DNA from: an uncultured Bacteroides sp.
GTDB lineage: Bacteria > Bacteroidota > Bacteroidia > Bacteroidales > Bacteroidaceae
Reading direction: 5' to 3'
DNA: 64,000 nucleotides
Assembly: GCF_963666545.1 (NCBI RefSeq)
Contig: NZ_OY762899.1
Location: 4,344,365 to 4,408,364 of the forward strand
The translations under genes were made by a program, and so were the position numbers. The notes below the pieces were generated by a model. That model was not told the origin of the DNA. It saw nothing but the letters and a program-made list of their open reading frames with translations, and did no database searches. Shown here in pieces: positions 20,668 to 26,329 of the stretch (position 1 is its first letter; each line of letters starts with the position of its first letter).

Positions 20668-23600
20668 ATGAATCCCCGCTTATCCATAATCACTTTGTGC
20701 CTGCTGCTTGCGTCAGCCTTCTTTTCATGTGTAGACATGGCACCTACTAAAGAGGTGCGATTCATTGATTCTCTCAATCAACAAGCTTATTTCTTTCGTT
20801 ATAAAAATATTGATTCATCGTTTATGCTCGCTCAACAGGCTTATCGTGGAGTTAGCTTGTATGGTCAGGGTAAGGCGGAAGCTTGCAATAATTTAGCTTT
20901 TTGTGCCTTTATGCGGATGAATTTTGAGATGGCTGAACGGTTGCATAAACAGACGTATAGTATTACCAAAAATGAATTGGAATTGCTTATAGCTGATGTC
21001 GGACTGATGAAAGTTTATCAGCGAACAGCTATGAACAAGGAGTTCTATGATTATCGAAATAGTGCTATCAGGCGGATGAAACGAATAGACGAAGACCGTA
21101 ATCTTTTTGTCGACAGTCATGAAAAAATCCGTTTAAACTATGCTTTTTCAGAATTCTCTATCGTTTCAGCCATTTACTATTATTACCTCCAACAACAACC
21201 CGAAGCTGCGGCTTCACTCAATGAAATCCAATTAGAGCAGGATTTGGTTGCTGATACCAGTCAGATGCTTTATTATCATTATATAAAAGGTTCGGCAGGT
21301 TTGTGTGAAGGTGAAACATCTGAAGCTCGTAAACTAAACGAGTTTGATGAGTTGTATGCCACGTGGCATATCGCTTCTCAACAAAGGTATGTTTACTTTG
21401 AAGGAAATGGCATACAAGGATTGGCTAATCTTATGATTACGCCTGATAACTTTGCTTTGTTTCAAACCAGGCGGCAACATGCATTAAAACAATTTGGAGT
21501 AACTGTTGATACATTGTTACCACTTCGTCTGGCTGAAATCTCATTGAGTAAGTTTCGCCGCTACAATGATCTCTATCAAATAGCAGCGGCTTATGTTACT
21601 ATTGGGAAATATCTCAATACTCATGGCCGCTATGCTGAAGCGCTCGATACACTCACTAAGGCACTTAATTGCGTTAACCGTCATCATCAGCTTTATTATT
21701 CACAACATCATGATTCGTTGCGTGCAGATATCTTAAAGCCTTTTATCGACGGAGATACGCTCTATACAGAGCTTAGCTGGATGGGCAAAGGGAAGATAAA
21801 AACCGTACCTGAGTGGATATCCCGTATTCGTGAGCAATTAAGTGTATCGTATGCAGGCATGGGTCTGAAAATTCCTTCGGACTATAATCGTAATGTCTAT
21901 CTTGCTATATTGGAGTATACCCGACAGGATAAACAGTTTGAGAGTCGTTATCAAGCACTAGAGCTGGAATCAAGACAGCTTAATCTGCTTCTTTTCTTCG
22001 TAATACTAGGATTGCTGTGTGTCTTTGTTTTGTTTTGGATCTTTAATAAACGTTCTAAGAAACGGAACTTGATGCACATATACCGATTAAGACTCACTTT
22101 AGATATTTGCCAGAAAATAACGGCATCCATTCCTGCCACAATTTCTGAAGAGGAGGAAATAGTGCAGGCCATTACTGTGGCTATTCAGCCGGATATGGAG
22201 AAACTGTTCGGAGTCAGAGCTATCCATCTTGAATTGGAAGGGGGCGAACGTATGGATGTAGACGGTCCTATTATCGATGAATTTGTAAAGTCGGATTTTA
22301 GTCTCTATGTGCCAGATAAAGAATTACCTATCGGATTACTAACGCTTCATACTCTTCGTAAACTGACGAAGGATGAACGTGCACTGGTTTGTGTTATCAC
22401 GCCTTACATAGCATGGACTCTGGATAATGGCATGACGTTTATTTCTTTGGGTGATGAACAAAAAAAACTGGAAAAACAACGTTACGTTTATGAGCAGCAC
22501 ATTGCCCGAAATAAACGCCAAAATCTTATAAAAAAGTCGTGTATGGCTATTGTGAATGGCATTAATCCTTATATAGACAGAATTATCAATGAAGTAGATA
22601 AACTCACTAAGAAAGGATTCATCAATAGCGAGACGATTAAAAATGAAAAGATTCAGTATATTGATGAACTAGTAACCACCATCAATGAATATAATGATAT
22701 ACTGGCACTCTGGATAAAAATGAAGCAAGGTACATTAAGTTTGAATATAGAGAACTTCATGCTCAGTGAACTTTTTCTTCTGGTTGGTAAAGGACGCAGA
22801 ACATTCGAAATGAAACATCAGGTACTTGAGATAGAACCTACGGATGCTGTTGTCAAAGCGGATAAAGCACTCACGCTCTTCATGATTAACACATTGACCG
22901 AAAATGCTCGTAAGTATACTGCTGAAGGTGGGCGTATACGGGTCAGCGCACATGTTACGGATGAATATGTGGAGATTTCAATAGAAGATAACGGAAGTGG
23001 ACTTTCGGCTGCTGATGTGACTCGTATTTTGGGCGAGAAGGTATATGACTCTCGCATAATAGGTCTCGATAATACAGTTAATCCCGAAGAGTTGAAACAA
23101 AATAAGGGAAGTGGCTTTGGTTTGATGAACTGCAAAGGAATAATCGAAAAATACAGAAAGACGAATGATCTGTTTCGTGTATGCCAATTTAGTGTAGAGA
23201 GCACTGTAGGCAAAGGGAGCCGCTTTTACTTTCGTTTGCCCCAAGGTGTACGAAAAATGTTAGGTGTTCTATTCTTTTTTCTGTTATCGGCAACTGTTGT
23301 GTCATGTGATAATGAATCTCCTGTGAAAAATTCTGTTTCAGCAGATTCTGTTACTACTGGTTCTGAAAAAGGATACGAAACACTACTTAATGAAGCTTCG
23401 CTCTTTGCTGATACAGCCTATTATTGCAATGTGATAGAAGATTATGCACTAGCTCTCCAATATGCCGATTCGGCCATAAATCGACTTAATATTCATTATA
23501 AAAAATACGCTCACTTTCCACATGCTTACATGAGCTTGTATGGAGATGGAAGAACCCCTGCCGAGGTTGAATGGTGGAATACGATGTTTGATTCTGATTT

Positions 23601-25122
23601 TCATGTTATTCTTGATATTCGCAATGAAGCATCTGTGTCGCTACTTGCCTTAAAGAAGTGGGAAGCTTACAGCTATAACAATGCTGCTTATACTTCTCTG
23701 TATAAGTTGCTGGGGGAAGATCAATCACTCGAGGATTACTGCAAGCAGTTGGAGCGCTCCACAACAAACAAGACGGTAGGGATCATTCTCTGTTTGCTTT
23801 TACTTGTATCGTCACTGATAGGTTACTATATTATATATGTGCGGAAGAGGTTAATTAACAGACTCAATCTTGAACAAGTTTTGGAAGTGAACAAGACGGT
23901 GTTTGCTTCTTCTTTGTTACGCTCACAAGAGACAGCCGAGCTTCTACTGCGTGAAGAAGAAACACTCAAAGAGATTCCTCAACACATTGTTGATGAGTCG
24001 TTTGATTCGGTCAACGAACTCTTGATGATAGACAGTATTGGTATAGCTGTCTACAATGAAACTGCGCATAAGTTAGAATTTGCCTCCAACCCTCGATGTG
24101 AAACGATGCCACTTATTGCGCAACGTTGTTTTGATGAACAAGTTCAGTTGTATGAAGAAAAATTTCAGGCACTTCCATTGATCGTTGATGCAGGAGAGAA
24201 TAGGCTCTGCGTAGGTGTGTTGACTATTGGTAAGCAAAAACTTGCTAATCAAGAAACCGATACTCTGCTTGTTGAGTTAATCACTCGATATATAGCTATT
24301 GTGGTATTTAATGCTGTGGTGAAACTTGCGATGAGATATCGGGACATTGAATCGGCTCAGGAAGAAACCCGTCGCGCATCTTTGGAAGATAACTTGCTAC
24401 ATGTGCAAAACATGGTGTTGGATAATTGTCTTTCCACCATTAAGCACGAAACCATCTATTACCCCAATAAGATAAAACAAATAATAGATAAGATCCAATC
24501 ACGGACTCTTTCACCTGCAGAAGAAAAAGAAAATATAGAAGCAATTGCCGAATTGATAGAATACTATAAAGGCATTTTTACGATACTCAGTTCGTGTGCT
24601 TCGCGGCAGTTAGAAGAGGTCACTTTCCGTCGCTCGATTATAAGAGTCACAGATCTCTTTGAGCATGCCGAAAAATATTTTCGCAAGGTGAGTAAAAATT
24701 ATCCGAATCGGATCTCTCTTTCGTCCCAACCGATGGAAGCCTTGGTGGTAGGAGACCTTCAGCTGTTATGCTTCTTGTTCGAGAACTTGATTGATGAAGC
24801 CCTTTCTGCACCTTATGAGGGAGAGTTGGAAATACAAGCTTGTCCTGATGGGGAATATATACGTTTTTCATTCATAGATAAGCGTCGGCAAAAAACCATA
24901 GAGGAACTCAATCAACTGTTCTATCCCAATCTTAATCGAATGATGGCGGGTGTGCGGGGTGAGTTAACCGGCACGGAATATTTGGTATGTAAACAGATTA
25001 TTCGTGACCATGATGAATTTGCTCTTCGGCGTGGTTGCCGCATCAATGCTGAGCCTGTTGCCGAAGGAGGATTCACCGTTTATTTCACTATTCCTAAACG
25101 AGAAACTAAAGTAATAAAATAA
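20668..25122 (+). CDS. Tandem double sensor histidine kinase, DUF5112/DUF5113-like
   Basis: 1484 residues in two homologous halves. Half 1: signal/lipoprotein-like start (F-F-S-C), periplasmic TPR-type helices, membrane helix about 440-462, then a kinase core with N box (T-E-N-A-R-K-Y), G1 box D774-N-G-S-G and G2 box G814-S-G-F-G-L. At the place expected for the phospho-acceptor His it has Asn630. Half 2: hydrophobic segment with a second lipobox (864-880, V-V-S-C), short periplasmic helical part, membrane helix about 1036-1060, then a core with His1260 (I-K-H-E-T). Its N, G1 and G2 boxes have lost their key residues. The two cores align by eye. Six bases separate it from the response regulator fragment, and the last 249 bases are repeated downstream. 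Family names are from memory. Confidence 0.85.
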   Translation: MNPRLSIITLCLLLASAFFSCVDMAPTKEVRFIDSLNQQAYFFRYKNIDSSFMLAQQAYRGVSLYGQGKAEACNNLAFCAFMRMNFEMAERLHKQTYSITKNELELLIADVGLMKVYQRTAMNKEFYDYRNSAIRRMKRIDEDRNLFVDSHEKIRLNYAFSEFSIVSAIYYYYLQQQPEAAASLNEIQLEQDLVADTSQMLYYHYIKGSAGLCEGETSEARKLNEFDELYATWHIASQQRYVYFEGNGIQGLANLMITPDNFALFQTRRQHALKQFGVTVDTLLPLRLAEISLSKFRRYNDLYQIAAAYVTIGKYLNTHGRYAEALDTLTKALNCVNRHHQLYYSQHHDSLRADILKPFIDGDTLYTELSWMGKGKIKTVPEWISRIREQLSVSYAGMGLKIPSDYNRNVYLAILEYTRQDKQFESRYQALELESRQLNLLLFFVILGLLCVFVLFWIFNKRSKKRNLMHIYRLRLTLDICQKITASIPATISEEEEIVQAITVAIQPDMEKLFGVRAIHLELEGGERMDVDGPIIDEFVKSDFSLYVPDKELPIGLLTLHTLRKLTKDERALVCVITPYIAWTLDNGMTFISLGDEQKKLEKQRYVYEQHIARNKRQNLIKKSCMAIVNGINPYIDRIINEVDKLTKKGFINSETIKNEKIQYIDELVTTINEYNDILALWIKMKQGTLSLNIENFMLSELFLLVGKGRRTFEMKHQVLEIEPTDAVVKADKALTLFMINTLTENARKYTAEGGRIRVSAHVTDEYVEISIEDNGSGLSAADVTRILGEKVYDSRIIGLDNTVNPEELKQNKGSGFGLMNCKGIIEKYRKTNDLFRVCQFSVESTVGKGSRFYFRLPQGVRKMLGVLFFFLLSATVVSCDNESPVKNSVSADSVTTGSEKGYETLLNEASLFADTAYYCNVIEDYALALQYADSAINRLNIHYKKYAHFPHAYMSLYGDGRTPAEVEWWNTMFDSDFHVILDIRNEASVSLLALKKWEAYSYNNAAYTSLYKLLGEDQSLEDYCKQLERSTTNKTVGIILCLLLLVSSLIGYYIIYVRKRLINRLNLEQVLEVNKTVFASSLLRSQETAELLLREEETLKEIPQHIVDESFDSVNELLMIDSIGIAVYNETAHKLEFASNPRCETMPLIAQRCFDEQVQLYEEKFQALPLIVDAGENRLCVGVLTIGKQKLANQETDTLLVELITRYIAIVVFNAVVKLAMRYRDIESAQEETRRASLEDNLLHVQNMVLDNCLSTIKHETIYYPNKIKQIIDKIQSRTLSPAEEKENIEAIAELIEYYKGIFTILSSCASRQLEEVTFRRSIIRVTDLFEHAEKYFRKVSKNYPNRISLSSQPMEALVVGDLQLLCFLFENLIDEALSAPYEGELEIQACPDGEYIRFSFIDKRRQKTIEELNQLFYPNLNRMMAGVRGELTGTEYLVCKQIIRDHDEFALRRGCRINAEPVAEGGFTVYFTIPKRETKVIK

Positions 25123-25128
25123 AGAAAG

Positions 25129-25353
25129 ATGGAAGAAAAGCTGTTTAAAGTAATTATAGTAGAAGACGTTAAACTCGAACTAAAAGGAACCGAAGAAATC
25201 TTTCGCCACGAAATACCCAATGCAGAAGTTATTGGCACGGCTATGACAGAGAAAGAGTTCTGGCCTCTTATTGAAAGTCGGCAGCCCGATATGGTATTGC
25301 TCGATCTTGGCTTGGGTGGCTCTACTACGATAGGCGTCGACATCTATAGATAA
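25129..25353 (+). pseudogene. Truncated first copy of the response regulator gene
   Basis: Identical to the first 72 codons of the intact regulator, then two codons from the joint and a TAA stop. It keeps the acidic pair (E12, D13) and phospho-Asp D59 but lacks the second half of the receiver and the whole output domain. Product of the tandem duplication; it is unlikely to fold. Confidence 0.85.
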
Positions 25354-25594
25354 GCGTCGGCAAAAAACCATAGAGGAACTCAATCAACTGTTCTATCCCA
25401 ATCTTAATCGAATGATGGCGGGTGTGCGGGGTGAGTTAACCGGCACGGAATATTTGGTATGTAAACAGATTATTCGTGACCATGATGAATTTGCTCTTCG
25501 GCGTGGTTGCCGCATCAATGCTGAGCCTGTTGCCGAAGGAGGATTCACCGTTTATTTCACTATTCCTAAACGAGAAACTAAAGTAATAAAATAA
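25346..25594 (+). pseudogene. Duplicated 3' end of the double kinase gene
   Basis: Repeats the last 82 codons and the stop of the kinase. An internal ATG at 25412 gives a 60-residue frame, but no independent start signal is seen. Remnant of the 472-bp duplication. Confidence 0.85.
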
Positions 25595-25600
25595 AGAAAG

Positions 25601-26329
25601 ATGGAAGAAAAGCTGTTTAAAGTAATTATAGTAGAAGACGTTAAACTCGAACTAAAAGGAACCGAAGAAATCTTTCGCCACGAAATACCCAATGCAGAAG
25701 TTATTGGCACGGCTATGACAGAGAAAGAGTTCTGGCCTCTTATTGAAAGTCGGCAGCCCGATATGGTATTGCTCGATCTTGGCTTGGGTGGCTCTACTAC
25801 GATAGGCGTCGACATCTGTCGCAACATCTGTAAACGATATCCGGGTGTGCGAGTGCTCATTTTTACAGGCGAAATCTTGAACGAGAAACTTTGGGTAGAT
25901 GTGCTAGATGCAGGAGCCGATGGCATCATTTTGAAAACAGGCGAGCTACTTACTAAAACAGATGTACAAGCCGTAATGGATGGAAAGAAACTTGTTTTTA
26001 ATTATCCAATTCTTGAGAAGATAGTAGACCGATTCAAGAAATCTGTTGCCAACGATGCGCGCAGACAAGAAGCTGTTATCGGTTATGACATCGATGAATA
26101 CGACGAACGCTTTCTGCGTCATTTGGCTTTGGGATATACCAAAGATATGATCGCAGCACTCAAAGGTATGCCGTTTGGGGTGAAATCCCTTGAGAAACGA
26201 CAGAACGATCTTGTAGGTCGGCTTTTTGCAGAAGGTGAGAGGGTAGGAGTGAATGCTACCCGGCTTGTTGTACGGGCTTTAGAACTTCGTGTCATTGATC
26301 TTGATAATCTTGAGGCCGATGAAGAATAG
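25601..26329 (+). CDS. Response regulator paired with the double kinase
   Basis: 242 residues. Receiver domain at 1-125 with acidic pair E12/D13, phospho-Asp D59 (V-L-L-D-L-G-L-G-G) and a conserved Lys in I-I-L-K-T-G. The C-terminal region (about 145-235) is helical, with L-A-L-G-Y-T-K-D-M-I-A-A-L and a V-K-S-L-E-K-R-Q-N-D-L helix, like a LuxR-type or DUF5932-like helix-turn-helix; DNA binding is therefore likely but inferred. It follows the kinase tail by six bases and overlaps the transporter gene by 11 bases, so the regulator and transporter are co-translated. Confidence 0.88.
   Translation: MEEKLFKVIIVEDVKLELKGTEEIFRHEIPNAEVIGTAMTEKEFWPLIESRQPDMVLLDLGLGGSTTIGVDICRNICKRYPGVRVLIFTGEILNEKLWVDVLDAGADGIILKTGELLTKTDVQAVMDGKKLVFNYPILEKIVDRFKKSVANDARRQEAVIGYDIDEYDERFLRHLALGYTKDMIAALKGMPFGVKSLEKRQNDLVGRLFAEGERVGVNATRLVVRALELRVIDLDNLEADEE

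Follow-up and report, generated by a model that had tools for sequence, protein, structure and literature searches.

What kind of signaling protein arises when one gene carries two histidine kinase cores, each of which appears to have lost what the other retains? The question is raised by a 1484-residue open reading frame (ORF) encoding a double sensor kinase precursor, at positions 20668–25122 of a 64,000-nucleotide stretch of DNA (the window) from an uncultured Bacteroides sp. (NCBI RefSeq assembly GCF_963666545.1, contig NZ_OY762899.1, positions 4,344,365 to 4,408,364). An earlier note on this DNA, in which the two halves of the protein were aligned by eye, proposed that half 1, having bound ATP, phosphorylates His1260 in half 2 of the same chain, and that half 2 passes the phosphate to an adjacent response regulator. 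Our analysis leads us to favor, with some confidence, a related reading: the ORF would encode a precursor of two kinases with opposite losses, cut into an obligate heterodimer in which phosphate flows from half 1 to His1260 and from there to Asp59 of the neighboring regulator. More tentatively, and with chances that we place slightly below even, we propose a polyprotein histidine kinase, in which signal peptidase cuts the product of one gene into an obligate kinase/substrate pair whose two periplasmic sensors are both required.

Several comparisons bear out the kinase kinship of both halves that the earlier note assumed. The Pfam domain HATPase_c is matched by the whole protein at 84.7 bits (cut-off 26.4; best stretch 739–859) and by half 2 alone at 30.9 bits (4e-7; cut-off 26.4); the catalytic domain of half 2 is therefore degenerate rather than absent. 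Solved histidine kinases are also matched by a profile of each half, built from 21 sequences apiece, with best E values of 6.1e-10 (half 1) and 1.1e-5 (half 2). Conservation was assessed across the 116 distinct proteins left after identical entries were removed from 127 sequences, the window's among them, and when profiles of these proteins are compared with hhalign, residues 600–862 align to residues 1225–1480 over 229 columns (probability 98.6%, E 5.5e-16). No HisKA-family Pfam domain is matched at E up to 1; the assignment of the dimerization and histidine phosphotransfer (DHp) regions rests on the half-versus-half profile alignment and on solved-kinase matches that cover mainly the catalytic part. 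DUF5112 and DUF5113 both exceed their Pfam cut-offs (315.1 and 329.5 bits vs. 29.4 and 27.1), and the linker domains of the two halves also align with one another (hhalign probability 90%, E 1.7e-6); that of half 1 has no Pfam match and is presumably GAF-like. From the positive charges that follow the two transmembrane segments (TM1 and TM2) and precede the junction of the halves, we assign the sensors to the periplasm and the kinase parts to the cytoplasm.

The losses in the two halves are complementary, and they are conserved. The N, G1, and G2 boxes are intact in half 1, as the earlier note had read them: N746, D774, G776, G778, G816, and G818 are each present in 116/116 proteins, and G814 in 113/116. 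The corresponding invariant feature of half 2 is a K-H-E motif (K1259, H1260, and E1261, each 116/116), and H1260 is the sole His column that is invariant across the set. The hhalign pairing sets N630 opposite H1260, with a one-residue gap alongside, and places N746, G776, G778, and G818 opposite E1377, R1406, Q1408, and E1437, respectively; D774 faces D1404, and G816 faces G1435. Of the contrast earlier drawn between Asn630 and His1260, the histidine stands, but column 630 is variable (N in 47, T in 33, and Y in 11 of the 116, with others besides), and the register could be off by one residue, because the pairing depends on a gap and the DHp stretches of the two halves do not align significantly when taken alone (probability 5%), although the longer stretch of DHp plus catalytic domain does. 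H1260 could instead face G631. At the N-box column of half 2 (1377), Glu is found in 86/116 proteins and Asn in 1/116; Gly occupies column 1406 in 5/116 and column 1437 in 2/116, and no homolog among the 116 carries a complete set of ATP boxes in this half. The loss of the half 2 boxes is nevertheless less thorough than it had seemed by eye, with D1404 retained as Asp in 102/116 and G1435 as Gly in 94/116.

Judged from these patterns, half 1 fits the description of a split-kinase partner with ATP boxes but without a conserved acceptor His, and half 2 that of the partner with the His and without a working ATP-binding domain, even if D1404 and G1435 are often kept. The degenerate domain does not resemble one in free decay, since it is still conserved (score 0.449, compared with 0.621 for the half 1 catalytic domain and 0.336–0.337 for the linker domains). 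The phosphatase motif HE/DxxN/T, quoted in PMC3591291, does not occur after H1260, where the sequence reads HETIY, with Tyr at +4 in 114 of the 116 proteins and single cases of Trp and Phe; a HisKA-type phosphatase is therefore not predicted for half 2. Chance, or an artifact of alignment by eye, was considered as a source of the whole pattern and is ruled out by the profile comparison together with the conservation in 116 distinct proteins.

The joining of the halves in one ORF extends well beyond the window. Two sets were compared, namely 54 selected regions (47 from the window's family and 7 from other families) and the best 80 of 582 confirmed loci, some loci being the same genome under two names. 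The second set takes in Bacteroides fragilis (L107), B. finegoldii (L113), and Phocaeicola vulgatus (L182). All 47 family regions hold one ORF that matches the window protein and contains the motifs of both halves, and one ORF runs across both halves at 79 of the best 80 loci, the exception (L163) beginning at a contig end. Overall, both halves lie in a single ORF at 126/127 loci, which rules out a recent accidental fusion or frameshift in the window genome. The seven weak matches from other families (L091–L097) were dropped, none of them matching the window protein at 1e-3; one of these, G120, exceeds the DUF5113 cut-off. Sampling of 399 family genomes gave DUF5113 matches in 313 of them and in 25 of 30 genera; in an order-wide sample, 14/393 genomes matched at E 0.001, with seven over the cut-off and six of these within the family. 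One genome, G758, has its two halves on separate contigs.

At 47/47 family loci, the kinase gene is closely followed by a response regulator homolog in the same orientation. Taking the first start codon, the distance from the kinase stop to the regulator ORF ranges from −112 to +222 bases at 45 of these loci and is 366 and 373 bases at the others. Across the 134 loci scanned, the regulator was found in 126 and the kinase in 127. T89 and K112 are found in all 111 distinct regulators compared; D13 and D59 each reach 110, one sequence having a gap there. The output domain is DUF5932 (197.4 bits, Pfam). By eye, a stretch within it resembles a LuxR-type helix-turn-helix; Pfam gives no such match.

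Whether the two halves remain one chain depends on the junction between them. The half 1 catalytic domain leads straight into K-M-L-G-V-L-F-F-F-L-L-S-A-T-V-V-S-C, and residues 864–880 look like an internal signal peptide, not a membrane helix; the earlier note had missed this segment. Its VVSC end has the form of an internal lipobox, a Cys after a short hydrophobic core, and the peptide is probably cut. The junction ends in [SAG]C in 82/116 homologs, in an AxA-like site in 31/116, and in neither in 3/116, counts that depend on the rule applied (74 lipobox, 26 AxA, and 16 neither under one rule; 81, 32, and 2 of 115 under another). For comparison, [SAG]C is found at the N-terminal signal in 98/116 homologs, and at the control helices TM1 and TM2 in 3/116 and 8/116. 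Homologs less than 45% identical to the window protein (n = 33) comprise 8 with [SAG]C, 23 with AxA-like sites, and 2 with neither. Because the junction resembles a cleavable signal peptide, the working enzyme may be two chains from one precursor. A cut internal signal peptide in a bacterial polyprotein has a precedent in cytochrome b/c1 (fbcH of Bradyrhizobium). It must be weighed, though, that the reading frame is unbroken at 126/127 loci and that the basic residues ahead of the junction would suit a membrane helix no less than a signal peptide; both points suit a single uncut chain, in which the junction would be a transmembrane helix and half 1 would phosphorylate His1260 within one polypeptide or between copies. 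We think this alternative unlikely, in view of the hydrophobic core of the junction, which has a median length of 13 residues (N-terminal signal 16, TM1 20, TM2 19) and measures 15 or fewer in 88/115 homologs, compared with 2/115 for TM1 and 29/115 for TM2 (L180 excluded), and in view of the [SAG]C or AxA-like site in 113/116, of which the AxA part is weak. Conservation scores are 0.223 for the junction, 0.234 for the N-terminal signal, 0.321 for TM1, and 0.366 for TM2. A different way of obtaining two chains would be to make the second half also, or mainly, from an internal start codon, in which case the fusion would be of little importance. An ATG does lie at 23257 in the window, and one is found within 14 codons of the junction in 62/116 homologs, but 44/116 offer only GTG or TTG and 10/116 offer none; an internal start is therefore no conserved alternative, the frame stays open all the same, and we regard this explanation as highly improbable.

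It is also conceivable that the halves do not serve one another, with half 2 acting as a phosphotransfer or phosphatase module of another kinase and half 1 as an ATP-dependent regulator or as a kinase for a different protein. A pseudokinase form of a histidine kinase, ChrS, has been reported, and half 1 does hold a candidate histidine, His611, in 99/116 proteins. His611 is, however, not invariant and lies where the DHp region begins; the fusion and the complementary conservation among homologs also speak against this arrangement, as does the Tyr at +4 from H1260, which misfits the phosphatase motif, and we judge it improbable. Several other observations weigh against the cut heterodimer that we favor. 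The homologs are kin, and counts among them are not independent. Column 630 does hold His in 3/116 proteins (L069, L073, and L081), although no conserved His was found in half 1; the acceptor contexts in these three are VHS, VHS, and AHN, with no acidic residue next, and L069 and L073 belong to one genus. Given the retention of D1404 and G1435, some nucleotide binding by half 2 is conceivable. Pairs between DHp1 and DHp2 are not enriched among the top couplings (0.71 and 0.75 times the expected number), the effective number of sequences being 75; pairs within DHp1 or within DHp2 were likewise not enriched (about 1.0 or none; the half 2 periplasmic domain served as control), and for these two reasons the coevolution test lacks power. 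DUF5113 has no match in 86 of the 399 sampled family genomes, and at least two of these, among the genomes listed, belong to the window's genus. Among 144 non-redundant control segments (internal hydrophobic segments of other ORFs in the same charge orientation), 19 have a lipobox-like match and 82 the permissive AxA pattern, compared with 81 and 32 of 115 junctions by the same rule; at these control rates, the lipobox result is strong and the AxA result weak. The internal lipobox could also be a relic of the duplicated gene. Finally, one metagenome-assembled locus (L180:5974-10383) lacks the junction stretch and has the halves in frame, possibly through an error.

The cut heterodimer would nonetheless accommodate the architecture of both halves. 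The sequences themselves establish the fusion, the complementary losses with their conservation, and the regulator next door; the steps that we infer are the cut, the heterodimer pairing, the direction of phosphate flow, and the two-signal gating. Half 1 (DUF5112/DUF5113 sensor, TM1, linker, DHp without an acceptor His, and ATP-binding domain) would be the kinase, and half 2 (DUF5113 sensor, TM2, linker, DHp with His1260, and degenerate ATP-binding domain) would be both its substrate and the phosphodonor. Segment 864–880, as an internal signal peptide, would take the second sensor through the membrane and would probably be cut by signal peptidase II in the lipobox forms or by signal peptidase I in the AxA forms, such that one message would yield two membrane proteins in a fixed 1:1 ratio. 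DHp1 and DHp2 would then pair as an obligate heterodimer, forming a mixed DHp bundle; half 1 would bind ATP and phosphorylate His1260 when both sensors permit, and the phosphate would pass to Asp59 of the adjacent regulator. The presence of two sensors in one obligate unit suggests two-signal gating. The route first proposed, from half 1 to His1260 to the adjacent regulator, keeps the backing of the complementary losses and of the complete receiver alongside, but its confinement to one chain has become doubtful, given the signal-peptide-like junction.

The simplest history of such a protein is the duplication of one complete kinase, giving a tandem pair whose members would then have lost opposite functions. 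It is suggested by a relative, from a different family of the order, that consists of one complete kinase, and it rests on one genus outside the window's family. DUF5932 was found in 6 of 295 genomes of the order, four within the family and two outside it, both from that genus (G101 and G286). There, the regulator gene, which narrowly passes the DUF5932 cut-off (26.2 vs. 23.7 bits), lies by a single 710-residue kinase with an N-terminal lipobox, a sensor, and a transmembrane segment. This kinase has a His in the context FRHDMSPY, and its N, G1, and G2 boxes are complete. Its alignment covers 622 columns with half 1 (E 9e-36) and 199 with half 2 (E 4e-16); neither DUF5112 nor DUF5113 is detected in it by Pfam. 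It likely pictures the state before duplication. In a 53-row tree, the halves separate into one clade of 22 half 1 rows and another of 22 half 2 rows, at 100/100; the tree program warned of long branches, and the tree is used here solely for the halves being old and separate.

The window protein is a member of the DUF5112/DUF5113 proteins (PF17139 and PF17140), named for domains of unknown function. The names DUF5112, DUF5113, DUF5932, PF17139, PF17140, and PF19355 appeared in no paper found in the open-access literature, and a search of that literature by domain names found no biochemistry on this kinase family. Two kinase modules in one chain are familiar from TodS-type kinases, which resemble the window protein in this respect and differ in that both modules keep their His and a receiver lies between them. 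The closer likeness is with split kinases. In CheA3/CheA4 of Rhodobacter sphaeroides, as the sequence predicts for the window protein, ATP-binding activity and the phosphorylatable His lie on different partners and neither partner autophosphorylates alone; phosphorylation of one partner by the other is described as shown in vitro (PMC3591291). Those partners are two distinct CheA-type proteins, and CheA3 is without dimerization and kinase domains (PMC3591291), whereas both halves of the window protein keep DHp-like and ATPase-like regions, lie in one ORF, and are membrane-sensor-like. For FasB/FasC of group A Streptococcus, two-hybrid and mutant data are reported to agree with a heterodimer in which FasC can do without its kinase domain (a proposed pseudokinase) and FasB is proposed to phosphorylate FasC His246, much as in the scheme for His1260 (PMC12675982). 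FasB/FasC differ in being two genes, in a FasB DHp that retains H241 and H284, and in a regulator that binds a ComE-like site (PMC12675982). Hik36/Hik43 of Synechocystis likewise divide a kinase over two proteins with one shared regulator, but their genes are far apart, the phosphorylatable part is a histidine phosphotransfer (HPt) domain, and there is no fusion (PMC7656254).

The split-kinase principle is already known. No split kinase encoded by one gene, with an internal signal peptide and retained throughout a family, was found in the open-access literature searched, which misses most subscription journals, and no two-component polyprotein was found there either. If the precursor is cut, it would be such a polyprotein. 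Were the scheme true, stoichiometry would be fixed at 1:1, and phosphorylation would need two periplasmic sensors at once. A single modeling study, backed by in vitro work, predicts that split histidine kinases may show switch-like or bistable responses (PMC3591291). The published split cases that we found are separate genes; a family-wide one-gene version would allow heterodimeric kinase logic to be tested in gut bacteria, in a natural system that is simple to mutate, and DUF5112, DUF5113, and DUF5932, at present names without function, would become testable.

Table 1. Features of the kinase–regulator region, in window positions; the last row gives positions within the two loci from outside the family.
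Feature	Position	Strand	Basis
Double sensor kinase precursor gene	20668..25122	+	One ORF spans both halves in examined loci
N-terminal signal peptide, ending in lipobox-like FFSC (Cys21)	20668..20730	+	Sequence
Half 1 periplasmic sensor, DUF5112 (residues 33–297)	20764..21558	+	Pfam, 315.1 bits
Half 1 DUF5113, ending in TM1 (start residue 438; end ~460 by eye)	21562..22053	+	
Half 1 cytoplasmic linker domain	22063..22482	+	hhalign to half 2 counterpart
Half 1 DHp-like helices, acceptor position Asn630 (22555–22557)	22483..22737	+	No conserved His
Half 1 catalytic ATP-binding domain, N/G1/G2 boxes intact	22738..23253	+	HATPase_c and box conservation
Internal signal-peptide-like segment M864–C880, lipobox VVSC (877–880)	23257..23307	+	Junction of halves
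Half 2 periplasmic DUF5113 (903–1059) with TM2 (start 1036; end ~1056 by eye)	23374..23844	+	
Half 2 DHp helices with invariant His1260 (24445–24447)	24373..24621	+	
Half 2 degenerate catalytic domain (pseudokinase)	24622..25107	+	HATPase_c 30.9 bits, degenerate boxes
First copy of exact 472-bp tandem duplication (kinase 3' end and regulator 5' end)	24874..25345	+	
Second copy of exact 472-bp tandem duplication	25346..25817	+	
Response regulator, receiver and DUF5932, 242 residues	25601..26329	+	Pfam; D13, D59, T89, K112 conserved
Single complete kinase next to DUF5932-like regulator, another family of the order	L105:7897-10862, L106:3757-6725		

The tandem duplication at the end of the kinase gene is either very recent or an assembly error. 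It leaves a truncated regulator ORF of 74 residues (25129–25353, by eye) before the intact regulator. In the best-scoring relative, L051, the regulator starts 7 bases past the kinase stop.

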